Source: Bacteroidota bacterium
Lineage (GTDB): Bacteria > Bacteroidota > Bacteroidia > CAILMK01 > JACPUW01
Length of the DNA stretch: 52,322 bases
Assembly: GCA_016192035.1 (NCBI GenBank)
Contig: JACPUW010000035.1
Span: 1-52,322, forward strand
Reading direction: 5' to 3'
The notes beneath the pieces were generated by a model. That model did no database searches. It was not told the origin of the DNA and saw only the letters and a list, made by a program, of their open reading frames with translations. The position numbers and the translations under genes are program-made. The first letter of the stretch is position 1; the number at the start of each line of letters is the position of its first letter. Shown here one piece after another: positions 2,845-32,885 of this stretch.

Positions 2845-3969
2845 CTAGAATGGTTTGCCGTGTGTGAGCCGTATAAGGCGCCTGGCAACTCCGGGCAGTG
2901 GCCGCAATATGCTTATGGCAAGGGATGATAAATGGGTATTGAGCAACAATCCTTGTAAACGCCTGGCCGTCTGAACCCTGAGTCCAAATGCGGCCCGCCA
3001 ATCACGTGCATGGTGGGTTTCCATGCGGGTTCTATCGGTCAATCCCCTTAAATATCGGTCTAAGTGATAGGCTGCCAATTGTGCCCCATGCAAGGCCATG
3101 CTCATTCCATTGCCGGTGAGAGGGGTAATCATCCCTGCCGAATCGCCGGCCATTAAACTATGCTGCCATACGGTCCCTTTATCTCCAAATGAAACCTGTG
3201 AAATACTCAAGGGGTGGCTGTACAAATGCTCCGAATGACTCAAATGATGGGCCAAGTAAGGGTTTCTGGCCAAATAGCGATGTTCTAATTGGCTAATGGA
3301 GCCAGCCTTTTGCAACATTTGGGCAGTGGTAAGGTAGCAAAAACAGGTGCGGCCGTTTTCCACCCGGCTTATACCGGCATATCCCTGTTCAAAGAGGTGA
3401 AGCTCTATCAAGTCATCGGGTATATCGCTGCGCAAGTGGTACTTAATGCCTACAAAATTGTTTTTCCGGTCAGGGGTACTTGTGGCAAATCCTCGGGGCT
3501 TGTCCAGTTTTGACCGTTTGCCGTAGGCCGCTACTACCGATTTAAATTGAAAAGGCCCACAATCGGTCTGTATTTCAAAATCGTCGGTCATGGGCCTATG
3601 TAGTATTGACTGGGCCCTAACCCCTTGCAATACTATTGCGCCTTTGGCCAGGGCTGCATTGGCCATGGCATCATCAAGCGCATAACGGCTAATGCCATAG
3701 CCGCCCAATGGAAGCGGGGTTTCAAGTTTTTTCCCGCTGGGATGTGTTATTGCAAACCTGCCTATATGTTGCCCGCCAAGGGATTCAATATCCAAACCCA
3801 GTTTGCCCAAAAAAGGCAGGCTTTCATTTGAAAGATACTCCCCACATACTTTATGTGCTGGATAGTGCCCTTTTTCAAACACCACTACCGAATGCCCCTG
3901 CGATGCCAACAAATTGGCGGCAGCCAAACCAGCCATGCCGCCTCCAACAATGCCAACTTCATAACTCAT
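2845..3969 (-). CDS. FAD-dependent oxidoreductase (geranylgeranyl-reductase/monooxygenase-like) of the type III PKS operon
   Basis: A 374-residue flavoprotein. The N-terminus has a Rossmann FAD-binding motif, GIVGGGMAGLAAANLL, within the first 20 residues. KVCGEYLSNE follows at about residue 45-55, as in geranylgeranyl-reductase-type enzymes, and GDSAGMITPLTGNGMSMAL near residue 275 is the second FAD motif (GD...P..G.G). It could hydroxylate or reduce the polyketide product; SrsC of the Streptomyces griseus srs phenolic-lipid operon is a functional parallel, not a proven orthologue. A longer open frame exists upstream, but ATG 3969-3967 overlaps the methyltransferase stop as ATGA, so I take that as start. 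It is the last gene of the three-gene operon and converges on the glutaminyl cyclase gene with a 7 bp gap. Confidence 0.85.
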   Translation of the reverse strand: MSYEVGIVGGGMAGLAAANLLASQGHSVVVFEKGHYPAHKVCGEYLSNESLPFLGKLGLDIESLGGQHIGRFAITHPSGKKLETPLPLGGYGISRYALDDAMANAALAKGAIVLQGVRAQSILHRPMTDDFEIQTDCGPFQFKSVVAAYGKRSKLDKPRGFATSTPDRKNNFVGIKYHLRSDIPDDLIELHLFEQGYAGISRVENGRTCFCYLTTAQMLQKAGSISQLEHRYLARNPYLAHHLSHSEHLYSHPLSISQVSFGDKGTVWQHSLMAGDSAGMITPLTGNGMSMALHGAQLAAYHLDRYLRGLTDRTRMETHHARDWRAAFGLRVQTARRLQGLLLNTHLSSLAISILRPLPGVARRLIRLTHGKPF

Positions 3970-4664
3970 TGCCCGCAGTCTTTTTGTATGACTACCAACC
4001 ATCTAAAAGCCCAGATCCATGTTATAGTCTTGGAGTGCGCGGGTATTTCCCGTATCAATTGGTGCAACTCCTTTTTGGTAAATGCCTTAGCTACAGATAA
4101 ACAGGCATCGTGACGTACCAGGTAAGATCGGGAGAGCAGGCGGGTGAGCCATTTAATGGAAAAATAGGCAAACCAATGTCTATGTAGGTCATTCAGAATA
4201 GCATAACTTGCTATCCGTAGCTTGGTGTTGAACAGGGACTTCAGCTTCTCTCCATAAAGGTGGTGCCCTACCAATGAGCTCATGGCAACATTATATTGAC
4301 CCGTAGGCAGGGATTCAAAATCAAGGGTTTGGTATGCTATTGGGTATCCCATACTATGCACCTTGGCATAGGCTATGGCATCAGGAAGCAGGTCTATTCC
4401 AGTGAGTTCTACTTGAATCCCGCGTGCCGAAGCCCAATGCCATATGGCCCTTAGTGTATCGCCACCGCCACAGCCTAGATCCACTATGCGCATGGTACCC
4501 TGTATGTGGGGTGCTATTTTTTCTAATCCCAGCAAGGTGGCGCGGTGGCCGCCCAACAGGCGGTTAATTGTCTCCAGTTCGGTGAGATTTCTCCATAAGC
4601 CTGCGCGCGGTATTTCTGGATTGTCCAGCATCTCCGCCTGATGGCTCCGCTTATTAAACCGCAT
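3966..4664 (-). CDS. SAM-dependent methyltransferase of the type III PKS operon
   Basis: A 232-residue class I methyltransferase. SAM motif I is MRIVDLGCGGGDTLRA (about residues 68-83), and motif II has the acidic residue in ELTGIDLLPDAIAYA. The middle gene of the PKS operon, it probably methylates the PKS product or an oxidised derivative, as SrsB and BpsB do in comparable operons; the site (O or C) is not predictable. The start is chosen at ATG 4664-4662, which overlaps the PKS stop as TAATG; a start 30 bp upstream is possible but would overlap the PKS gene more. The stop overlaps the next gene as ATGA. Both overlaps suggest translational coupling. Confidence 0.87.
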   Translation of the reverse strand: MRFNKRSHQAEMLDNPEIPRAGLWRNLTELETINRLLGGHRATLLGLEKIAPHIQGTMRIVDLGCGGGDTLRAIWHWASARGIQVELTGIDLLPDAIAYAKVHSMGYPIAYQTLDFESLPTGQYNVAMSSLVGHHLYGEKLKSLFNTKLRIASYAILNDLHRHWFAYFSIKWLTRLLSRSYLVRHDACLSVAKAFTKKELHQLIREIPAHSKTITWIWAFRWLVVIQKDCGQ

Positions 4665-5746
4665 TAGTTGGCGGTAGATTGCTGTATAAGGCAAGATTCA
4701 AGGGTGAGGCCAGGGCCAAACCCTGCGGCAAAAATCACATCATCTTCCTGTAGGTTGCGCCGATCCCACATCTCCTTGAGCACAAACAAAATAGTAGGCG
4801 ACGACATGTTGCCGTGGTGCTTTAGTATTTGCCGAGGTATGTCAAGGGCATCAACGGGCAGTTCCATGGTCTCTTCCACAGCGTTCAGTATCTTGATCCC
4901 GCCCGGGTGTATGGCCCATTTTCCCACATCACTTCTCTGCAATCCAGCGGTATATAAACAGCCCTCCAGTAGCGGCTGCACACCTTCTTTCACCAATTCA
5001 GGTATGTATGAAGTGAGTTTCATCTTAAAGGCGTGATCACCTATTTCCCAAGCCATGTCCTTTTGTCCCTTGGAAATTAGTCGGCTAAAAAAGCGGCTAA
5101 TTTTCCACTTGTTTGTTTGCCTGGTTTTACCGCTAACTATCACGGCAGCAGCACCATCGGCAAAAAGCGCGTTGGCCCTTAGATTGTCTTCTGTGGTATT
5201 TTTCAAAAAGTGTAAGGAGCAGAGTTCCACGCAAACTATCAATACACGCGAATTGGGTTCACTCTGGCATAGGGCGTCGGCTATGCGAAGGGCGTGAAAT
5301 GCGGCATAACACCCCATAAAGTTGACCGACAAACGAATGACATCATCACCCAAACTAAGTTTCTCCATTAGCTGGATATCTAATCCTGGGGCCGACATGC
5401 CCGTACAACTGACCGTTATTAAATGGGTTACTGTTTTAAGCTCAATGTCTTGCAGGGCATTCACAGCTGCCTTCAGGGCCAGGTCGGGGGCTTCTTCGGC
5501 AAAGACACGCATGCGCTCGCTCAGGCTGGCCTGACGGCCATTAAAAAGATGATGGTTCTCGTTGCGCGGGGAGAAATCTGGCAGTACGCTGTGGCGTTCA
5601 TCAATGCCTGACTTGGCATATAGTATGCGGATAAGCCGGTCCGTGCGCTCATCCGCCGACACGTATGACCGCATGAAGTCAGAAATTTCTTGCTGCCTGT
5701 ATTTATAGGAAGGAAGTGCCGTGCCTATGGCGGTGATGTAACTCAT
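4664..5746 (-). CDS. Type III polyketide synthase (chalcone/stilbene synthase-like)
   Basis: A 360-residue homodimeric condensing enzyme of usual family length. The catalytic triad is readable: Cys146 in NFMGCYAAFHALR, His280 in WAIHPGGIKIL, and Asn313 in HHGNMSSPT. The C-terminal GFGPGLTLE loop is typical of the family. Such enzymes extend an acyl-CoA or acyl-ACP starter with malonyl units to alkylpyrones, alkylresorcinols or phloroglucinols. No dedicated acyl ligase or ACP is visible nearby, so the starter may come from fatty-acid metabolism. First gene of a three-gene operon (PKS, methyltransferase, FAD enzyme) and divergent from a UbiA-type prenyltransferase across a 90 bp gap. Confidence 0.95.
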   Translation of the reverse strand: MSYITAIGTALPSYKYRQQEISDFMRSYVSADERTDRLIRILYAKSGIDERHSVLPDFSPRNENHHLFNGRQASLSERMRVFAEEAPDLALKAAVNALQDIELKTVTHLITVSCTGMSAPGLDIQLMEKLSLGDDVIRLSVNFMGCYAAFHALRIADALCQSEPNSRVLIVCVELCSLHFLKNTTEDNLRANALFADGAAAVIVSGKTRQTNKWKISRFFSRLISKGQKDMAWEIGDHAFKMKLTSYIPELVKEGVQPLLEGCLYTAGLQRSDVGKWAIHPGGIKILNAVEETMELPVDALDIPRQILKHHGNMSSPTILFVLKEMWDRRNLQEDDVIFAAGFGPGLTLESCLIQQSTAN

Positions 5747-5836
5747 ATGCCTGACTGATGTTGGTGCCTACAACCACTAGATCAAAGAAAGTGTTCGCCT
5801 CTTTCAAATCTGCGTCCACAATATTGCACCAATGTA

Positions 5837-6739
5837 ATGAATATTTTATCAATCAAAAACTTGAAGAAGTGGCGCCATGCGGCAGTGCTGTTGCGCATTC
5901 CTTTTTCGGTGTACCTCATGCCCGTTTTTTGGTTTGCCCTACTCCCTATTCAGCCCCATGAAGCTACATGGATAGGGGTGATTGGTGTTTTTATAGTGGT
6001 GCACTTGTTTCTATATCCCGCCAGCAACGGGTATAATTCTTATTGCGATAAGGATGAAGGGCCTATAGGGGGCCTTGAGAAACCTCCCCCTGCCAATGGG
6101 CAATTGTGGTTTTTATCTTCGGCATTTGACTTAATTGCTTTGATATTAGGGTTTTGGATCAACTGGATTTTTGGGATTGGTATCCTTGTCTTTACCCTTG
6201 TGTCCAAAGCTTATAGCTGGCCAAAAATCCGATTAAAGAAGTACCCCATTATTGCCGCACTGACAGTGAGTGCGTTCCAAGGATTTATTGCCTATTTCAC
6301 CATTCAATCGGGATTTACAGGTGAGATAGGGACTTCTACCCACAACCTCCTCTTGGCAATCTGTTCAAGTGTCTTTTTGGCAGGGAGTTATCCTTTGACC
6401 CAATTGTATCAGCACAAGGAAGACGCCCAACGGGGAGATGTAAGCCTGAGCATGTTGTTAGGGGTGGAGGGCACCTTTCGTTTTTCGGCTCTTATGTTTT
6501 CGCTGGGCGCATTGCTCTTATTCATTGGCCTGTGGATGTGGGGAGTGTGGTACGTATTTCCGGTATTTCTAGTGACTACGACTCCGGTGACCATCTTGTT
6601 TGTGAGGTGGTGGAAGGCCTGTAGCCAAGACCCCATTCATGCCGGATTTGCACAGGCCATGCGGATGAATAAGGTGTCGTCTATCTGTATGAGCTTGGCT
6701 TTTATAGCTATTAGGGAGATACTCATCTTCTGGAAGTGA
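5837..6739 (+). CDS. UbiA-superfamily prenyltransferase (integral membrane)
   Basis: A 300-residue protein with about eight hydrophobic helices. The first metal/diphosphate-binding motif is N67-S-Y-C-D71-K-D73-E followed by GPIGG, the usual NxxxDxxxD-like site. The second is YQHKEDAQRGDVSLSMLLG near residues 192-210, matching the second Asp-rich loop of the superfamily. These enzymes attach an isoprenoid chain to an aromatic acceptor in the membrane. Standing divergently beside a type III PKS operon, it probably prenylates the phenolic product, although a role in another lipoquinone cannot be excluded. ATG 5837 is 90 bp from the PKS start, so both transcripts start in that gap; I found no clear TAnnTTTG box there. 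Confidence 0.85.
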   Translation: MNILSIKNLKKWRHAAVLLRIPFSVYLMPVFWFALLPIQPHEATWIGVIGVFIVVHLFLYPASNGYNSYCDKDEGPIGGLEKPPPANGQLWFLSSAFDLIALILGFWINWIFGIGILVFTLVSKAYSWPKIRLKKYPIIAALTVSAFQGFIAYFTIQSGFTGEIGTSTHNLLLAICSSVFLAGSYPLTQLYQHKEDAQRGDVSLSMLLGVEGTFRFSALMFSLGALLLFIGLWMWGVWYVFPVFLVTTTPVTILFVRWWKACSQDPIHAGFAQAMRMNKVSSICMSLAFIAIREILIFWK

Positions 6740-6799: not shown

Positions 6800-7507
6800 A
6801 TGAGAAACACCAAACCAAACCACATGAGAGGAGTAAAACTATTCGCAACCGCACTCTTAGCGCTGGGATTATCGGCGGCCTTTGGCCAGGCCACCCGGTT
6901 TTCCACCGCCGACCTGGCACTTGGGCCTAATGGCACGGTTACCGTGCTTTCGTTGGCCTATACCAAATCTTTTATCATTAAAGACCACATTTGGTTGGGC
7001 ATAGGCCTTAGGGGCAACCAATTGATGGCAGGTGAACAGACCTATTTCACCGCTCCGGCCAAATACACCATGAACGACCAACTTGATGAGTTCAAATTGG
7101 GTAAGGCTTCTACCACATCGCTAAGCATCAAGCTGCACCTGGGCGGGTTAATTACTGAAAAAATAGGATTGGGCTTCAATATTGACGCGCTGGGAATTTC
7201 ATTTGGGCCCGGGCAAACGGGTACGCTTACCCAGATGGTAGCCGACCCTGATGGCAGCACGTTTGCCAACACTACGGCCAAACCCACTTCTACCAATGTA
7301 CTCCTAGTGGGTGACAATGATATAGGTAGCCTAAACTCTGAGTTTTTTCTGTACTATAAGGCGGGCCAGAAACTGGGGTTTCGCGCAGGACTTTCCATGT
7401 TCTTTTCGGAGTACACCACCCAAGCCGCCGGGTTTGACGGCAACCAAAGGTTCAGGAGCAAGATTTCCTACCCATTTGTTTCCGTTGGTTATCATTTCAA
7501 TAAGTAA
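6800..7507 (+). CDS. Predicted outer-membrane beta-barrel protein
   Basis: About 235 residues with a signal peptide (FATALLALGLSAAFG, then Q as likely first mature residue). The rest has alternating amphipathic strands such as TVTVLSLAYTKSFI, TSLSIKLHLGGLI and LGFRAGLSMFFSEY. The C-terminus is SYPFVSVGYHFNK, with an aromatic penultimate stretch as in small Bacteroidota barrels. I do not recognise a specific family. The open frame extends back to a GTG at 6755; ATG 6800 or ATG 6824 is more likely, both leaving a complete signal peptide. YceI follows 5 bp later, so the two may be one transcript. Confidence 0.7.
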   Translation: MRNTKPNHMRGVKLFATALLALGLSAAFGQATRFSTADLALGPNGTVTVLSLAYTKSFIIKDHIWLGIGLRGNQLMAGEQTYFTAPAKYTMNDQLDEFKLGKASTTSLSIKLHLGGLITEKIGLGFNIDALGISFGPGQTGTLTQMVADPDGSTFANTTAKPTSTNVLLVGDNDIGSLNSEFFLYYKAGQKLGFRAGLSMFFSEYTTQAAGFDGNQRFRSKISYPFVSVGYHFNK

Positions 7508-7512
7508 TTGCC

Positions 7513-8040
7513 ATGAAGAATTTAATGATAATAAGCACATTGCTCTTGGCATTTCCTGTCATGGCAGCAAATAGGATTATTTCATCGGCCAGTTCTACAG
7601 TGGGTTTTGAGATTTCAAATGCAGGTATGGCGGTAGATGGAAAATTTACCGAAGTATCAGGCAACATTGATATTGACCCGGCCAATCTCTCGGCTGCACG
7701 TGTGTTCGCTACGGTGAAAACGGCAAGTATAAATACCGGCATTGCCATGCGCGACGACCACTTGCGCAGCAAGGATTACTTTGATTCCGACAAGTTTCCA
7801 AGCATGACGTTTGTGGGAAGTTCATGCTCCATAAAGGATGGCGTCATCACCCTAACGGGCAAACTCACCATAAAGGACAAAAGCAAAATCATCAGCATGC
7901 CCGTTGGTACCTCCACTAAAGGTGACCTAACAATCTATTCAGCTAGTTTCCAGATAGATAGAAAGGAATTTGGTGTAGGCGGCAATAGCTGGATAATGGG
8001 CGATGATGTAAAAGTGAAACTTGCCATAGCTTGCAAGTAA
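7513..8040 (+). CDS. YceI family lipid-binding-like periplasmic protein
   Basis: A 175-residue protein with signal peptide MKNLMIISTLLLAFPVMA followed by one YceI domain (PF04264). Family features are SSTVGFEISNAGMAVDGKF near the mature N-terminus, MRDDHLRSKDYFDSDKFPSMTFV in the centre and FQIDRKEFGVGG near the end. YceI proteins fold as a lipocalin-like barrel that binds polyisoprenoid or amide lipids in the periplasm. It is preceded by a beta-barrel gene and converges with a MarR regulator across a strong hairpin terminator. This mature protein does not begin with Gln, unlike most exported proteins in the window. Confidence 0.93.
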   Translation: MKNLMIISTLLLAFPVMAANRIISSASSTVGFEISNAGMAVDGKFTEVSGNIDIDPANLSAARVFATVKTASINTGIAMRDDHLRSKDYFDSDKFPSMTFVGSSCSIKDGVITLTGKLTIKDKSKIISMPVGTSTKGDLTIYSASFQIDRKEFGVGGNSWIMGDDVKVKLAIACK

Positions 8041-8070
8041 TGCGCTGAAAATGTGTTGTCTTACTGATTG

Positions 8071-8101
8071 AACCAGGTTGGAGTTCCAGCCTGGTTTTTT
8101 T
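8071..8101 (+). terminator. Rho-independent terminator after yceI
   Basis: AACCAGG (8071-8077) pairs with CCTGGTT (8090-8096), and the pairing continues inward as T-G wobble, T-A, G-C and G-C, leaving a small loop. A run of T follows to 8101. It ends the beta-barrel/yceI transcript; the MarR gene converges on it from the right. Confidence 0.85.
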
Positions 8102-8124
8102 ATGTTTGGCTAGGTTGACCCTGC

Positions 8125-8619
8125 CTAGTCATCAAAGTCCGTCATATCCATAGGCCCATCCTTGGCTATGTATGACTCCCTTACCTTGTCCAAAATCTCG
8201 TTAACCACTTTAGCTTCTTCTGCCGATATGCCTTCTAAGGCCTTGTAGTGGTCCAGTATCAGGGGCTTTATTTCTTCGAGCATTTTTAAGCCCTTTTTGG
8301 TTATCCATACCTCAGTATTGCGCTTGTCGGCCGAGCCCGTCGATTTGCTCACCAAACCCTTCTCGGCCAGTTTGTTTACCAATCTTGATGCATTGGACAT
8401 CTTATCGAGCATGCGCTCTATTATGGTGCTTATATTTACCTTGTTTGGGCTCTGGCCCCTAAGTATGCGCAGTACATTATATTGCTGTTTGGTAATGCCA
8501 AAAGGCTTGAGGATGACATGTACCTTGCGCTGCATAAAGTACTGGGTGTAAATGATGTTTACAGCCATTTTGTGGTACTCAGAGTCAAATCTGCTCTTTA
8601 TTTCCTCTTCAAGTTTCAT
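8125..8619 (-). CDS. MarR family transcriptional regulator
   Basis: A 164-residue winged-helix regulator. The DNA-binding region is readable: GITKQQYNVLRILRG, then IIERMLDKMSNASRLVNKLAEKGLV as recognition helix, then the wing GSADKRNTEVWITKKG with the family's D-x-R signature. MarR proteins are dimers that bind short palindromes and are released by small ligands or oxidants. ATG 8619 (MKLEEE) is chosen because the longer frame starts at TTG. A TGTTA-N5-TAACA palindrome lies about 55 bp upstream and may be its operator. The adjacent yceI is a plausible target, since MarR/YceI pairs are common in this phylum. Confidence 0.93.
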   Translation of the reverse strand: MKLEEEIKSRFDSEYHKMAVNIIYTQYFMQRKVHVILKPFGITKQQYNVLRILRGQSPNKVNISTIIERMLDKMSNASRLVNKLAEKGLVSKSTGSADKRNTEVWITKKGLKMLEEIKPLILDHYKALEGISAEEAKVVNEILDKVRESYIAKDGPMDMTDFDD

Positions 8620-25085: not shown

Positions 25086-28000
25086 CTATCTCAGTACGCG
25101 TACTAGGCCATGTTCCACATAAGGTACGCCATTCACAGTGACCATTTCTATCTGGTATTTGTACATGTCAACCGGCGCAAAGGTTTGGTCAATGGTACGT
25201 CCGTCCCAGGGTTTTCCATCGTGGGTTTCATATATTATTTGTCCCCAGCGATTAAAGATGCGCATGGTGTATTTTTCCGGAATAAAGGCACCCTGTGGGC
25301 CAAAATGATCGTTGGTGCCAGGACTTACTTCCGGACTAAATACGGTGGGGATATAAATCAGCGGTTCCTGGGTGATGCATAGAGTGGTTGACCACGCAAT
25401 TTCATTGTAGGCCCCCATTTTTTCTACCGCTTTTACCCGGTAGCAATAGGTCATAAACGAGTCATTTAGACTGGTATCCACGTAGGCGGTGAACCGGGAA
25501 TCGGTAGTTCCTATTTTCTTGAAATTGAGTGAATCATATGATCTGTACACATCATAGTATGCCACACTGTCCGGCCAACGCTGGTAGGCAGCCCATTGAA
25601 CGGAATTGGCCATGGCCAAATTGCCACCGGTAAGTACCAAGGCGCAGCCTGGATTGCTCATGGGGCCTTCGTTTTTGCACTTGTCTTCCACGGCTATCCG
25701 GTAGCAATACTCGGCTGTATGGTCCAGGTTGGTACTGTCCACCCATGATGAGGGGCCCGTGGCCGGTAGCTTTCTTATGGCCTCAAAATCCGAACTTCCT
25801 GGCAAAGATCTGTAAACCAAATAGTTTTGTTTGTCCACTTCAGTATTCGGTTCCCATCTTAGCCGTACGCCTTGATTGTAGGTGAGCACCGTGGCGGTAG
25901 CCAAATACACTGACGACGGGCTGCTGCGGTCAACTCCTATGGCGGTATCCATGTGTGATGTGGCCGCAATACCTATATCACCCTGTTTGCCAATTATATA
26001 ATACTGATAGACAATGGAGTCACAACCCACATTGGTATCCAGATATTCAAAAATGCTGTCGGGCCGGGCCTTGTTCACTTTGAATTTGTGAAGCTCTGTG
26101 CCATTCTTCATCACACTGAATTCACCTACATTCCATCCCCTGTAATTCATCCAATTAAGTTTGACTACCGGCCCAGCCTGCGACGCCACTAAGGCTATGT
26201 GTTGGTGAACAGGGGAGGGCATTGGTTGGTTGTTGCCACAGGAATCGGTGACCGATACCCTAAACTGCCACGGATCCATGCTCATGGGCTGTGGTAGGGT
26301 GTTGTCGGTGTAGCTTGTCCCTTGCACGTTTTGCGCCAGGGTATCCCATATATTGTCGCTATACCGCTTGTAGGCTATGGTATAGTATCGGGCATCACTC
26401 GAACTGCTCTTAGCCCAGTTGATTACCAACTCGTTGGCTGGGTTTACGGTGGCCGTTATTATGCTGGTGGCTGCCGGTCGTGTCGTGTCAAATCCCACTA
26501 CCTCTTCCACATCAGAGCTTGATAATAGTCCTATAGCTGAAACAGCCTGTACGTAAAACGCCACCAACTCGCCACAGCCTACCGATGAATCCCTGAAACT
26601 AACCTGATGTGGGGGCAAGGTGGCTATTTGGGTGAATCCCGTCCCTTCCACGTTGCTGAAAACCCGGTACTCCGCTACATCAAAACCCAAGTACTCCGTC
26701 CAATCCAGTTGCGAAGCAAGATTCTGGTTTTCAACCGACAATTGGATGGGGGAATGGAGCAAGCTGGTATCGCCGTCCACCAAACAAGTATTGATTGCGG
26801 TGAGGCGGTAAAAGCCCCGGCGTTCACTGGTATTAACCGTGTGGGAATAGGTGGTGTCCGTGCGTTTTGGAAATTCGGCGATGAGGCTGGGATTTAGGTC
26901 CAGACTATCAATCCAGTAGAGCCTATACCCCACCACAAATGGATCTTTTTGTCGGTCAATCTTGCCCCAACTCAAGGCCACCTCGCCATTTGCTGGATCT
27001 GTTTTCATAACCGTAACCGATTTTATGCTTGGGGCCTGTGCCAGATTTCTTATCTCTTGCACAAATTGCTGAGTGTCTGTTTCTGACCATTGACTTATGG
27101 TAGTATTCACCGCCATGATTTTGTAGGCATAGGTATTGCCCGTGGCCACCGTACTGTCTATGAATAGGGTAATGGGTGCCTGTACCGAATCAATAGCCCT
27201 AAAAGGACGGCCATTGGTGCTTCGATGGATAATATATATGTCAATTCCCTTTGACAATCCCAGGGGTATGGACCATTGAAGCAAATTGGTGGGGTCACAT
27301 GTGTCGCGCTTATAAGTGAAAATAAAGTTGCTGGCCGTATCACTTGGGGGCGACACATGGCTGGAACTACAACTGTCAACCGCTTGGATGTAATATAAGT
27401 ATGTGCTATCCTGAGGGCTGGCTACAGAATCGGTGTACCGGTCAGTTCTCAGTACCGTATCAATTGGGGAGTAGGTGCCTGTTAGGCCTTTCTTCCAGAT
27501 AATGAAGTGCTTCACATCTGAGGTAGGTTGGTAATCCCATCTTAGTTCCAGGGTTTTATGGCTGCTTACACTGGCAGCATGGAATATGGGCATGGTGGGG
27601 CTTATGGTATCAAAAGGAGTAAGTGATACCCAGTTAGAAACCGAGCGCCTGTTGCCCCCGTTTTCGAGGGCCACTATGCGGTAGGATACCGGACTGTTGC
27701 ACCCAACCGGGCCATGTGTATATACGGTATCTGTCCACTTGGCCGTGTCTATGGTCACCCAATTGAGGCCGTCAAAGTGCTCAATTCGGTATTCCTGAAC
27801 AGGATAGCCAACAAATGGCCTCCAAGAAAGATGGTTTTCAAAATTGCCGGGGCTACCGCCCACAAAAACCGGTTTGAATGAGGTTGAGGCATTGGCGTTG
27901 AGACAAGAGTCGAGCGCTACTACCCGGTAGGTGAAGTATGTGGCTGCCAGGTTAACCGTATCCAGGTAGGTGCTCTTTTGTTGTGGAAGGGTATAAAGCA

Positions 28001-31000
28001 CTATTCCATCCGTTATGAAGGGCAATCCATTGCGCGACTTCAGAATGCCATACCCATAGGTGTCGGTGGAGTCACCGCCCGTAAAATCAATTTGAATATG
28101 GTGGTTGTCCACTACCGTCACATTATTTATGCGGGGCGCATCGGGTGCCTGTAGGTCAATGGCCAATCCGGAGGTGGTGTCAGAGTATGCCAGGGCACCT
28201 ACTGAATCAACCGCAGCCATACGGTAGGTTATGACTGTATTACAAGGAGCTGGAAATCTGGTAAATTGTGATTTGGTTGGAGAAATGGTGTCTATGTTAA
28301 TGTACTTGCCACCTATAAGCTGCTGAAGTATATACAGGTTAACACCAAATCCCTTGTAGCTGGTCCAGCTTAGGTTGTGCTGAAGTTGCCCATACCCAAA
28401 ATCCATGTTCATGGTTTTATGGATGGAAAGGGTGTCAGACCTAGATCCGCACGAATCGATGTTTACCAAGAAATATTGATGGTTTGTGGTCTTGGTATTT
28501 AGCCCCACATGCACAAAAAAAGTATCGACAAGCGGGATACTGTCGCGGAGCAAGGTAAACACAGGGCTGCTTTCTTCCCTGTAAAACAAGTCGCTATGGG
28601 CTATAAACGGCTGTCCTTTTTGTGAATCCCATGTGATCTCCACACTGCCGTTGGTAGCATTGGTTTCTATGATGGATGCGGTTCTTGCCCGGGGCACAGC
28701 GGTGCTATATACTTGGGCACTGAGTTTCTGTGAATACCCACTATACGTGCCCCCAATTTCAAGTGCTTTAACCCGGTAAACATATTTGTGGTGGGGGCTA
28801 ACATTGTCAATAAAACTGGTGGAATTGCTTGGGATACTTGCTATTAAGATCTCCGCTTTCCCATCAATGCTTCGGTATAGTTCATATTTATCAAGCCCTT
28901 TGTCAAAATTGTTATAGGGGTTCCAGTAGAGTTCCAGCTTGTCTTGGCAGCCAAGTTGCCTGCTTTGGAGCAATAGGGTGTTTACACCTTTTGACTTGTA
29001 GTAGCTGGGATTCTCAATGCAAGAGTCTATGGCAATAAGTGTATAGGTATATATGGAGTCGGTGGGCACTACATCGGTGTAAACAAACTTATTGTTTAGG
29101 GTATCCAGTGGCATATAGGGGGTCTTAGGCCCTTTTCTATAAATCACGTACATGTTTGCATCGGCTGAAGTGCTCCTATTCCATGCTATTTCCACTTGAT
29201 TGGTTCCCAATACACTTACATATTTAATTACCGGGGGCACTGGGCTTACGGTATCAAATGGTTTCAGCCTAATGGTGTCAGAATAGGCTATATAGCTGCT
29301 GTTTTGATCTATTGCCTTTATCCTATATTGTATGGTATCAAAGCAATATAGGTTTTGGTGGATATAAGTGGATGCGGTGCTGGGCAACACTTGCAGGGTA
29401 GTAAATGCGGTTTGGGATGGCAATATGGCCTCTAATTGGTACTCCTTTACGGTAAATCCTTTGTATCCAGACCAGTATAGCCTGTTTTCTTGATTGGCAC
29501 CTACACCGCTGAGCTGTACCGCGCCTTGGAGTATATTGTTCACCGACCGGTTGGTTGATGAGCAGGAATCTATGGCCACGAGTCGGTAGGTAAATGTGTC
29601 GGTTTTGGCAGAAATGCCTGTGTGCGAGTAGGTTTGGGTGCTTCCTGGCCCTTTGGGCAAGTTGCCCAGAAGTGATAGGGTACTTCCGTTTACGCCATAT
29701 AGCAAGTCGTAGCTTACCACATCGCCCGATGTGCTTTGTTCCCATTCCAGCCTTATGGTGGTATCGTTGTCAACCGTGGTGAACCTCACCCTGGGGTTTT
29801 TGGGTTTGATGGTGTCAAAAGGGGTTGCCGTTATGACGTTTGACATCACCATGATGCCTGTGGTCCGCTCCTTGGTGCGTATGCGGTAGGTATATGGCTG
29901 CTTGCATGGAAGGTTTAGGTAAGTGACGGTTTTGGTGGTGCGGCTAAATTGCTGGATTGGGCTCCATAACCCATTCACATCCTGTACATCCACATAGTAG
30001 CTATCCACCTGAAAACCCTCGTAGAAACTCCAATTGAGCCGGTTGCCCAGGTTTAGGGCGGTGGCCTGCACAAACACCGGGCAGTACAACTCGGCATTGG
30101 GTGAAAAATTCTGCCCGCAACTGTCCACGGCAATCACACCAAAACAATACGAACGGGTATCGGTGTTTTTGGTCTTAATATCCACTTTCACGGTATCGGC
30201 TGCAGCGGTACTATAGGTGGTTACCTCGGTATTTTGTAGGGTGCCATCTTTATATTCTAAGGCAATGATCAGATAATCATTTACATCGGTGGCTGGCGAT
30301 TTTTTAAATACTACTTTGGTGGTGGTGTCGTCCACATTGCTGGCCCATAATATATCTATGGCTGCAGGGGCTATGGTGTCTTTGGCGCGGGCCAATACGG
30401 AGTCTGACCAAGACTGGTAACTCCCCGCCGAAGCCGCAGAAAGGGTGCGCAACCTATAGTCGTAAATAAACCCGCAAAGCGTGGCTTTTTTGTCTATATG
30501 GGTAGAATCATTAGGCCCAAGACGTGCCCATGTTTTCCAGGTGCCGCTTATGGTGTCAAATCGCTCTACGTATTGACTGTCAATACTATATCCAAGATAT
30601 TTGTTCCACCGCAGTTTTACTTCCCGCTGCGAGCCATACGCCTTTAGGTTTACCGGGCAGTGCTGAACGGAGGTATCGCCAGCGTTGCCGCAGGAGTCTT
30701 GGGCCACTATGCGGTAACAATACTCTTTCGCATTGTTGGCCAGTCCATTGTCAATATAAGTATTGAGATTGGCCGTGGATTTTAGGGTGGATATAAGGGT
30801 AAAGGCCCCGCCTTTCAGTGCCCTGTAAATGCCATATTGGCTTACCTCGGTGCTGGCGCTCTTGGCAAATGTGATTTCAGACCTGCCCCAATCTAATACG
30901 CGCACGTTTTTGAGGCCTGGCGCACCTACCGGCGGGCTGTTGTCCACGGTGGTGGAAGTAACTACCGACGATAGGATGCTGCAATATGCTTGGGTGGTGG

Positions 31001-32789
31001 TGGTATCTATCACCTTAATCCTGAAGTCGGTATTTAGTACACATGATGAATAGTCTATGAAAAGCCCTTTGGTAGTACCCACGTCAACAAAAGCGTTGTT
31101 TTCCTTTTTTTGCAGCACGTACTTGAAAGGGCCGTTGCCATAAGAGTTCCAGTCAAAGCGCAGGGTTTTGTCGCTTATTTCTTTGTAGGTCAGTACTATG
31201 GTTGATAAACTGTCAGATGCAAAACCTTCAAGCCCACAGGAGTTTTCTATTTTGAGGTAGTACCTATATTGGGCTGTGGTGGCATTGCTTACTGATTTGT
31301 CAGTGAATGAAGTGATGGTAGAGTCGGTAAAGCTCTTGATCTTGGCCCTGGTGCCGTCAGGATTCACCCGGTATAGGTGCAACCCCTTGAAAAAGGCTAC
31401 GTTGCGAAGGGTATCCCAGGTTATTTGTATTTCGCCGCCACTTACCGGGTTCACACAGAGTATGTCGGGTGGCGTGTATATATCGCGCCCCTGCACATAT
31501 ACTGAAAAAGTGCGTTGAACTTGGTTACATCCTTCGTCAGAGAGGGTTACGGTGAAAATGTGCGGTGAAGTATAGGTAATGTGTTCGCAAGTAGGCACCC
31601 AGAAAAAGGTAGATGTGGCTTTTTTGACCCCAAATGCATTGGGTAGGGTGGCATGGGGGGTGGGTATGGTGCTGCCCGAACCGCCAAAAATGCTGCCGTT
31701 TGACCGGATAAACACCGAGTCGGTCTTGTCCTCTGCTTCTATTTTAAAGGTAAGGGTATCAAATGGATCCACCTTGTAGGTAGTGGTGGTGGGGCTATTA
31801 AAAAAGGGCGGGGCATTGCTCACATTGGGGCAGTTGCCGGCTATGAACTGTAGGTCGCGGCGGATGGAACCCAAATACGTGGTTTTTTTTGTTACCGGAT
31901 CCACCCGGTACTCCTCAATTTTTATGGCTATGACATAATTACCAGAACTCGAAGGATTTGCCTTCATTTCTCCTGTAGTGGAGTTGATGCTTATGGCCGA
32001 ACTGCTAGAACCAAAGGGCAGGGTGGAGGAATACCCTGATTGGTACACCACGGTTTCGTACACGTCATTGTAAGAAGGTGCGGGCACCGAGTTGCTGGGG
32101 TTGGGGGCGGCGGGCAGGCACTGGTCGGGCGACAAGGGGGTGACAATCTTGAAAACAAGGGAGTCGCCATCGGGGTCAAATACCACGTGGTTGAAACTAT
32201 TGCTTATGCCCACGCAGAAATAGGGCACCGGTACGGTGAGGAACTGAGGGGAGGAGTTTTTATATTTAAAGGAGGGTACTTCTGCGGTCCACACCATGCC
32301 GAAGGGGTTTCGGCCATTGCAGCTGCCTGAGGTGCAAGAGCTGTTGTTGGTGCTTGACACACAGCGTTTGAGATTGTTTATGGCGTGGTTCCGCTCTAGC
32401 CTGTACCAGGTTACTATATAGCCATCGGGGTCACCGCCCAGCTCCACCGTGTCTATGTATTTGCCGCTCTCTATGCATACCCCGCTTGGGTTTACACAGT
32501 TGGGCGCTTCGGGTTTTACCTTGTCTTTCTGATTGTTGTACAGGGGGACACGGCGGTTGTTTATGAATACGTTTTTCGATTTCTTAAAATAGACAAAATA
32601 GACTATGGAGGGGTCTATGTTGGCCTGGCCTGCGTTGCAATCCCTATAGACCAAAAAGGTCAACTCATAGGTGCTGTCGTGCAAATGGCGGTAGGTGAGG
32701 TCGCCGCCCATCACGTGGGTAGCTTGGGCGCCGGGCATAGAACATATTCCCAGACAGATACATAGCAGGAGGGGTAGGAATCTAATCAT
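25086..32789 (-). CDS. Giant secreted FN3-repeat protein with T9SS type B sorting domain
   Basis: About 2567 residues. Signal peptide MIRFLPLLLCICLGICSMPGA precedes an N-terminal domain (ATHVMGGDLTYRHL...YELTFLVYRDC) seen on many giant Bacteroidota surface proteins. From about residue 460 come about 22 fibronectin type III-like domains in 11 alternating A-B pairs. A modules end in a (D/N)-(S/T/K)-C element (for example QDSCGNAG, VDSCGQN). B modules contain L-x-W-x-x-Y-x-G-(F/W) (for example LYWSGYKGF, LNWMNYRGW). The last about 85 residues are the gliding-motility-associated type B sorting domain (YIPTVFSPE...NDHFGP...MRIFNRWGQIIYET). ATG 32789 is chosen because it starts the signal peptide; the frame is open 26 codons further. 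Probably a surface adhesin or matrix protein. Confidence 0.93.
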   Translation of the reverse strand: MIRFLPLLLCICLGICSMPGAQATHVMGGDLTYRHLHDSTYELTFLVYRDCNAGQANIDPSIVYFVYFKKSKNVFINNRRVPLYNNQKDKVKPEAPNCVNPSGVCIESGKYIDTVELGGDPDGYIVTWYRLERNHAINNLKRCVSSTNNSSCTSGSCNGRNPFGMVWTAEVPSFKYKNSSPQFLTVPVPYFCVGISNSFNHVVFDPDGDSLVFKIVTPLSPDQCLPAAPNPSNSVPAPSYNDVYETVVYQSGYSSTLPFGSSSSAISINSTTGEMKANPSSSGNYVIAIKIEEYRVDPVTKKTTYLGSIRRDLQFIAGNCPNVSNAPPFFNSPTTTTYKVDPFDTLTFKIEAEDKTDSVFIRSNGSIFGGSGSTIPTPHATLPNAFGVKKATSTFFWVPTCEHITYTSPHIFTVTLSDEGCNQVQRTFSVYVQGRDIYTPPDILCVNPVSGGEIQITWDTLRNVAFFKGLHLYRVNPDGTRAKIKSFTDSTITSFTDKSVSNATTAQYRYYLKIENSCGLEGFASDSLSTIVLTYKEISDKTLRFDWNSYGNGPFKYVLQKKENNAFVDVGTTKGLFIDYSSCVLNTDFRIKVIDTTTTQAYCSILSSVVTSTTVDNSPPVGAPGLKNVRVLDWGRSEITFAKSASTEVSQYGIYRALKGGAFTLISTLKSTANLNTYIDNGLANNAKEYCYRIVAQDSCGNAGDTSVQHCPVNLKAYGSQREVKLRWNKYLGYSIDSQYVERFDTISGTWKTWARLGPNDSTHIDKKATLCGFIYDYRLRTLSAASAGSYQSWSDSVLARAKDTIAPAAIDILWASNVDDTTTKVVFKKSPATDVNDYLIIALEYKDGTLQNTEVTTYSTAAADTVKVDIKTKNTDTRSYCFGVIAVDSCGQNFSPNAELYCPVFVQATALNLGNRLNWSFYEGFQVDSYYVDVQDVNGLWSPIQQFSRTTKTVTYLNLPCKQPYTYRIRTKERTTGIMVMSNVITATPFDTIKPKNPRVRFTTVDNDTTIRLEWEQSTSGDVVSYDLLYGVNGSTLSLLGNLPKGPGSTQTYSHTGISAKTDTFTYRLVAIDSCSSTNRSVNNILQGAVQLSGVGANQENRLYWSGYKGFTVKEYQLEAILPSQTAFTTLQVLPSTASTYIHQNLYCFDTIQYRIKAIDQNSSYIAYSDTIRLKPFDTVSPVPPVIKYVSVLGTNQVEIAWNRSTSADANMYVIYRKGPKTPYMPLDTLNNKFVYTDVVPTDSIYTYTLIAIDSCIENPSYYKSKGVNTLLLQSRQLGCQDKLELYWNPYNNFDKGLDKYELYRSIDGKAEILIASIPSNSTSFIDNVSPHHKYVYRVKALEIGGTYSGYSQKLSAQVYSTAVPRARTASIIETNATNGSVEITWDSQKGQPFIAHSDLFYREESSPVFTLLRDSIPLVDTFFVHVGLNTKTTNHQYFLVNIDSCGSRSDTLSIHKTMNMDFGYGQLQHNLSWTSYKGFGVNLYILQQLIGGKYINIDTISPTKSQFTRFPAPCNTVITYRMAAVDSVGALAYSDTTSGLAIDLQAPDAPRINNVTVVDNHHIQIDFTGGDSTDTYGYGILKSRNGLPFITDGIVLYTLPQQKSTYLDTVNLAATYFTYRVVALDSCLNANASTSFKPVFVGGSPGNFENHLSWRPFVGYPVQEYRIEHFDGLNWVTIDTAKWTDTVYTHGPVGCNSPVSYRIVALENGGNRRSVSNWVSLTPFDTISPTMPIFHAASVSSHKTLELRWDYQPTSDVKHFIIWKKGLTGTYSPIDTVLRTDRYTDSVASPQDSTYLYYIQAVDSCSSSHVSPPSDTASNFIFTYKRDTCDPTNLLQWSIPLGLSKGIDIYIIHRSTNGRPFRAIDSVQAPITLFIDSTVATGNTYAYKIMAVNTTISQWSETDTQQFVQEIRNLAQAPSIKSVTVMKTDPANGEVALSWGKIDRQKDPFVVGYRLYWIDSLDLNPSLIAEFPKRTDTTYSHTVNTSERRGFYRLTAINTCLVDGDTSLLHSPIQLSVENQNLASQLDWTEYLGFDVAEYRVFSNVEGTGFTQIATLPPHQVSFRDSSVGCGELVAFYVQAVSAIGLLSSSDVEEVVGFDTTRPAATSIITATVNPANELVINWAKSSSSDARYYTIAYKRYSDNIWDTLAQNVQGTSYTDNTLPQPMSMDPWQFRVSVTDSCGNNQPMPSPVHQHIALVASQAGPVVKLNWMNYRGWNVGEFSVMKNGTELHKFKVNKARPDSIFEYLDTNVGCDSIVYQYYIIGKQGDIGIAATSHMDTAIGVDRSSPSSVYLATATVLTYNQGVRLRWEPNTEVDKQNYLVYRSLPGSSDFEAIRKLPATGPSSWVDSTNLDHTAEYCYRIAVEDKCKNEGPMSNPGCALVLTGGNLAMANSVQWAAYQRWPDSVAYYDVYRSYDSLNFKKIGTTDSRFTAYVDTSLNDSFMTYCYRVKAVEKMGAYNEIAWSTTLCITQEPLIYIPTVFSPEVSPGTNDHFGPQGAFIPEKYTMRIFNRWGQIIYETHDGKPWDGRTIDQTFAPVDMYKYQIEMVTVNGVPYVEHGLVRVLR
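25380..31460 (-). repeat. Coding tandem repeat: 11 A-B pairs of FN3-like domains
   Basis: Protein-level repeat of about 190 residues (about 560-570 bp) repeated 11 times inside the giant gene. Copies are diverged at DNA level: wobble positions differ throughout, so the array is old rather than recently amplified. The C-containing motif in A and the W-Y-G motif in B recur in register. Confidence 0.75.
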
Positions 32790-32830
32790 AGGTGTTGGAA
32801 GGTAAAGGACATGTGACAACAATCGTAGGT

Positions 32831-32838
32831 CAAAGTTA
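32831..32838 (-). promoter_or_regulatory. TAnnTTTG -7 box for the giant gene
   Basis: The minus strand reads TAACTTTG, 41 bp upstream of ATG 32789. This agrees with the shorter start, since the box would otherwise be inside the coding frame. Confidence 0.5.
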
Positions 32839-32885
32839 ATCACAGGCCCCATAAGAAACTGGGCCACCTTTTGTATTCGTTTTTT

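Follow-up and report, generated by a model that had tools for sequence, protein, structure and literature searches.

Does a membrane prenyltransferase gene that stands back to back with a type III polyketide synthase (PKS) operon belong to the same pathway, and if so, what do the genes make together? The question is raised by a contig of a Bacteroidota bacterium, analysed here as a window of 52,322 nucleotides. We consider it fairly probable that these genes form a compact biosynthetic cluster whose product is a prenylated phenolic lipid, made by the pathway steps proposed below.

Layout and extent of the locus

Three genes on the reverse strand encode the type III PKS (4664..5746, 360 amino acids), a class I SAM-dependent methyltransferase (MT; 3966..4664, 232 amino acids) and a FAD-dependent oxidoreductase (2845..3969, 374 amino acids). 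The UbiA-superfamily membrane prenyltransferase (5837..6739, forward strand, 300 amino acids) is transcribed divergently, its start codon separated from that of the PKS by a 90-bp intergenic region read from the sequence (5747..5836). A sequence-only reading had described these four genes with their coordinates and junctions, and all are as described when the open reading frames and junctions are read directly: the PKS stop and the MT start overlap as TAATG (AACTAATGCG), and the MT stop and the FAD enzyme start overlap as ATGA (CAATGAG). In the list of open reading frames the FAD gene begins at 4002 (385 amino acids), but the true start is most likely 3969, as judged from the ATGA overlap and from the homologues, which begin at this position.

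The four-gene span is genuine and goes well past anything expected by chance. As delimited it is probably too short, with two more forward-strand genes following UbiA. The first (6800..7507) encodes a secreted, probably outer-membrane beta-rich protein for which no Pfam match was found, and is a possible accessory (export) gene. The second (7513..8040) encodes an exported YceI-family protein (PF04264, 123 bits), polyisoprenoid-binding-like and a possible carrier of a prenylated product. A homologue of the outer-membrane-like gene opens a six-gene operon (L093:23-5142, genome G432), the most complete form of the cluster that we saw, in which the genes for the outer-membrane-like protein, YceI, UbiA, PKS, MT and FAD enzyme overlap or lie about 30 bp or less apart. 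Because this operon packs all six genes together, the gene set of the window may extend to the outer-membrane-like and YceI genes (6800-8040). The outer-membrane-like gene recurs near the cluster only in L093 and in L106, where it comes after UbiA and where MarR, outer-membrane-like, UbiA and PKS genes are kept together. Besides its place in the six-gene operon, a YceI gene is adjacent to the cluster in two loci (L166 and L167), and in 9 of 127 loci one lies within six genes. YceI proteins are annotated as polyisoprenoid-binding, fitting a prenylated lipid. The link to the cluster is only suggestive, given that a genome holds 2-10 copies of this family and that neither the YceI nor the outer-membrane-like gene was found beside the cluster in L087, from a genome of the same genus.

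Next to the FAD gene, a MATE transporter and a glutamine-cyclotransferase-like gene (332-2837) also flank the cluster in this same-genus relative (L087:10868-13353), and thus in both sampled genomes of the genus. The pairing is probably local synteny, as the two were not seen together beside the cluster elsewhere. Further along the window, positions 25086-32867 encode a giant protein of 2593 amino acids with a CHU_C type IX secretion signal at its C-terminus.

Proposed pathway and product

The proposal builds on direct observations: the genes are present, stay linked across genomes and are inherited together, and the folds fit the roles assigned to them. The PKS would use a fatty acyl starter from general metabolism and malonyl-CoA to form an alkylresorcinol or resorcylic acid, to which the MT would add one methyl group. 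The flavoenzyme would hydroxylate or oxidise the ring toward a hydroquinone or quinone, and UbiA would transfer an isoprenyl chain from a diphosphate donor to the phenolic acceptor at the inner membrane. In the window lineage, and more speculatively, the YceI-like periplasmic binder and the outer-membrane-like protein may pass the product onward. By analogy with described systems, this product would most likely be a methylated, oxidised and prenylated alkylresorcinol or alkylquinol. Points against the proposal include these: the NCBIfam model closest to the PKS is DpgA (175 bits, cut-off 425), which makes a short aromatic, and the first UbiA motif, NSxxDxD, is non-canonical.

The window PKS has the features of the type III family, including the chalcone/stilbene synthase domains (Chal_sti_synt_N/C, PF00195/PF02797, 109/82 bits), a fold with TM ~0.9 and a Cys-His-Asn triad. 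The triad had been called intact from the sequence; C146, H280 and N313 are indeed present, and are unchanged across 95 of 95 aligned PKSs. The AlphaFold model (pLDDT 89.2) aligns with TM scores of 0.88-0.91 to a M. marinum type III PKS, PKS11, Steely1 and PKS18, all of them acyl-primed enzymes from bacteria or slime moulds. Plant type III PKS structures score nearly as high, so the structural matches leave the product of the PKS unfixed. An unlikely alternative is that UbiA prenylates an alkylpyrone or a short-chain aromatic, which the PKS would form in place of a long-chain alkylresorcinol. The pyrone makers PKS18 and PKS11 are among the closest structures, and DpgA is the best NCBIfam model. 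However, identity to all compared solved structures is about 25-29%, too low for the ring type to be read from them, and the set of PKS, MT and FAD genes matches operons whose PKSs make long-chain alkylresorcinols. UbiA enzymes, moreover, usually require a phenolic acceptor.

The MT has the class I fold (Methyltransf_25/11/31, with Methyltransf_25 at 34 bits) and matches PRK06202 at 144 bits, short of the cut-off of 243 bits. The FAD enzyme falls in the geranylgeranyl-reductase/halogenase-like flavoprotein superfamily, and we assign it as a probable ring hydroxylase or oxidase. It matches FAD_binding_3 weakly (48 bits), and its best NCBIfam match is the geranylgeranyl reductase superfamily model TIGR02032 (GG-red-SF, 106 bits), which would fit a prenyl reductase acting on the chain that UbiA has attached, so that the enzyme would saturate this chain instead of hydroxylating the ring. 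A reduction of this kind would also be needed for the agq product of Actinoplanes, which has a dihydrogeranyl group. We nevertheless find a prenyl reductase improbable. The TIGR02032 match lies under the family cut-off of 158.8 bits, and the conserved motif is VCGEYxS, whereas geranylgeranyl reductases typically carry CGGG. Orthologues of the FAD enzyme (E 1e-68 to 1e-83) are found in FAD-MT-PKS operons of genomes from three families (f5, f2 and f11) that lack this UbiA, and the orthologue is also present in Flavobacteriaceae-type FAD-MT-PKS operons that lack it. Another clade has, instead of the window type, a FAD enzyme of the hydroxylase type with a strong FAD_binding_3 match (201 bits). 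The presence of the orthologue in operons without UbiA argues that its substrate would be the polyketide ring and not the prenyl chain.

The prenyltransferase matches PF01040 at 60 bits (cut-off 34.2). Its model (pLDDT 93.5) retrieves 4TQ4, 4OD4, 6M31 and UBIAD1 with Foldseek, and thus resembles archaeal UbiA homologues, DGGGP synthase and UBIAD1, all of which are lipid-handling prenyltransferases. The window protein has the UbiA fold, and prenyl transfer is its predicted activity. The motifs of its subfamily, NSYxDxD (NSxxDxD) and YQHxxDxxxG(D), the latter in longer form TQxYQHxxDxxxG, are highly conserved and have diverged from the canonical NxxxDxxxD and DxxxD.

Distribution and inheritance in Bacteroidota

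We screened 395 Bacteroidota genomes sampled across the phylum, searching for the PKS, UbiA and FAD enzyme separately. A UbiA orthologue was detected in 26 genomes at E<=1.6e-44; these orthologues make up a distinct class, with the next matches appearing only at E>=2.9e-25. All 26 genomes have both a PKS orthologue (E<=1.4e-78) and a FAD enzyme orthologue (E<=1e-74). UbiA adjoins the PKS in 20 of them, whereas the remaining six (G387, G072, G166, G146, G190 and G158) carry it at another genomic position. Conservation of UbiA beside PKS homologues was the point on which the sequence-only reading had proposed to be judged, and the genomes did not return the outcome that would speak against it. 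For PKS homologues that do not belong to this group (among them family f25), the screen found no such UbiA. A Fisher test (26/0/0/369) gives 3e-41, a value that covers PKSs of the UbiA group only, with the group defined after the tree and the E-value gap had been seen, and that comes from related genomes, which do not count as independent observations of co-occurrence.

A scan of named genomes yielded 80 loci, including Chitinophagaceae, Cytophagales, Sphingobacteriales, Flammeovirga, Runella, Solitalea and Chryseolinea. Among 127 loci with a close PKS, the MT is nearby in 111, this UbiA in 91 (directly upstream of the PKS in 89) and this FAD enzyme in 84; any other neighbour family reaches at most 17. 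UbiA and PKS are co-directional in 61 cases (median overlap 8 bp) and divergent in 30. The architectures comprise UbiA>PKS>MT>FAD, FAD>UbiA<PKS>MT and, in the window and its same-genus relative, UbiA<PKS>MT>FAD. Some relatives retain the PKS and MT without other cluster genes nearby. Split genes were observed in two loci: the PKS forms two open reading frames in UBA2338 (L143:9001-10104; frameshift or assembly error), and both UbiA and FAD genes are split in LS_ISSM_2_bin.86 (L157:4342-5212 and 7038-8206; frameshifts or assembly errors).

In a tree of 95 PKS sequences (quick method, SH-aLRT support), every UbiA-linked PKS falls inside one clade of 63 rows (SH-aLRT 96). Thirteen rows of this clade are without a local UbiA, representing losses or relocations within the clade; those that come from the 395 screened genomes (Pontibacter-like f10, f6, f9 and f11) have UbiA elsewhere in the genome. 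Sister groups comprise 14 rows (support 100) with the other, strong FAD_binding_3-type FAD enzyme, and others without UbiA. The simplest reading of the tree is that UbiA was gained once, with rearrangements afterwards. Since it co-occurs with the PKS in all 26 genomes that have it, adjoins it in most and is linked to PKSs of a single clade, UbiA is, on comparative genomic grounds, a member of the PKS pathway, and the four genes act together. That UbiA serves another pathway, for example menaquinone, and does no more than stand beside the operon is very improbable: it is transcribed divergently from the PKS in the window and the genome holds four other UbiA-family genes above the cut-off, but this constant association within one PKS clade, the 61 co-directional and mostly overlapping pairs, and its absence from most Bacteroidota genomes, unlike a core quinone gene, argue against it.

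Outside Bacteroidota, the PKS of Legionella maioricensis (L184:7069-10149, order MT-FAD-PKS, without UbiA) nests within the Bacteroidota clade, suggesting that this operon arrived by horizontal transfer. A complete UbiA-PKS-MT-FAD cluster was seen in a metagenome-assembled genome labelled Candidatus Sericytochromatia (L110), which may be transfer or mis-binning. Plasmids of Deinococcus radiodurans (L209:4995-9224, followed by a glycosyltransferase) and Psychrobacter urativorans (L208:4995-7818) carry a type III PKS with MT and FAD genes; the plasmids searched contained PKS relatives and no UbiA relative, and no relatives were confirmed among the viral contigs searched. A neighbour of 1285 amino acids in the f25 clade, considered as a transporter, was rejected as it is a histidine kinase.

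The pathway is kept in many Cytophagales and Chitinophagales relatives, where it probably builds a prenylated phenolic or quinone lipid. Retention of the four genes across many Bacteroidota families, even when they are scattered, suggests that the lipid plays a durable role. A bolder and doubtful extension is that the cluster is dedicated to a prenylated alkyl-quinol lipid of the membrane, ancestral to a large Cytophagales/Chitinophagales/Sphingobacteriales lineage and carried by YceI-type and outer-membrane proteins. Such a lipid would belong to the envelope or act as an additional redox carrier, and would not be a sporadic antibiotic. If the product is a prenylated alkylquinone, it would add a meroterpenoid lipid class to Bacteroidota. 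Type III PKS clusters make up 10.7% of Flavobacteriaceae clusters (PMC10734526); though such clusters are routinely counted, we found no product assigned to a Bacteroidota type III PKS cluster in open-licence papers. The pathway is directly testable, as it is carried by several cultured strains (Niastella populi, Runella defluvii, Flammeovirga pacifica, Chryseolinea serpens and Solitalea longa).

Comparison with known systems

The srsABC operon of Streptomyces griseus, first proposed as the model, encodes a type III PKS, a methyltransferase and a flavin enzyme, to which the window genes correspond no more closely than in kind. SrsB is an isoprenylcysteine-type (isoprenylcysteine carboxyl) methyltransferase (PMC6669644), a type absent here, whereas the window enzyme is a class I Rossmann enzyme. 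The window flavoprotein, with its weak FAD_binding_3 match and GG-red-SF as best match, is apparently of another subfamily than SrsC. UbiA lies outside the srs core operon and is a fixed member of the Bacteroidota cluster. The lack of a starter-activating enzyme, of which none was found in the window cluster or scanned neighbours, had been thought to set the cluster apart. It is not distinctive, because srsABC is likewise without one: srsABC alone suffices, and SrsA uses acyl-CoAs (PMC6669644).

Closer in gene content are hidABC of cyanobacteria and an operon of planctomycetes, which have the same compact trio of MT, FAD oxidoreductase and type III PKS (PMC8086630, PMC10896814), usually in the order MT-FAD-PKS and not PKS-MT-FAD as in the window. 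Planctomycete PKSs from such operons make pentadecyl- and heptadecylresorcinols (C15/C17), and one planctomycete MT gave C-methylation (PMC10896814). These operons have no prenyltransferase, except in a hid-like cluster of Raphidiopsis, where one was noted once (PMC8086630). Within Bacteroidota, Flavobacteriaceae-type operons of FAD and MT genes with a divergent PKS (L188-L192 and L207) have an orthologous FAD enzyme and related MT and PKS, but the PKS is only 27-29% identical and there is no UbiA orthologue. In one of them (L188:3600-8602, genome G142), these genes are followed by a FabA-like dehydratase, a ketosynthase and a weak acyl carrier protein match, which suggests that this PKS may be fed by a dedicated fatty-acid module.

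Nor does the adjoining prenyltransferase in itself distinguish the cluster, as had been claimed. In other actinobacteria, a UbiA-family gene adjoins those for type III PKS, methyltransferase and oxidoreductase in the losA region (PMC7587189) and in an srs-like cluster of Gephyromycinifex (PMC8779670), with other methyltransferase and oxidoreductase types and reported as isolated cases rather than as a clade-wide unit. Compared by gene content, agqABCD of Actinoplanes missouriensis, from a different phylum (actinobacterial), is the same, with type III PKS, methyltransferase, oxygenase and membrane prenyltransferase clustered together. Which agq gene encodes which of these four enzymes was reportedly described by Awakawa in 2011. 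The agqABCD cluster leads to alkyl-O-dihydrogeranyl-methoxyhydroquinones (PMC7692728), and O-prenylation of a small polyketide by a membrane prenyltransferase has been assayed for agq (PMC4044012). By analogy, the Bacteroidota cluster would work like agq, and we do not claim descent from it. Given the agq and Gephyromycinifex precedents, the general logic of a PKS combined with a methyltransferase, an oxygenase and a membrane prenyltransferase is already known from actinobacteria. Among open-licence papers we found none on this Bacteroidota cluster. Judged from the genomes compared here, what appears to be new is that UbiA is fixed in a type III PKS pathway and inherited with it across a large part of Bacteroidota, and that this UbiA represents a subfamily of its own and the flavoenzyme is likewise distinct.
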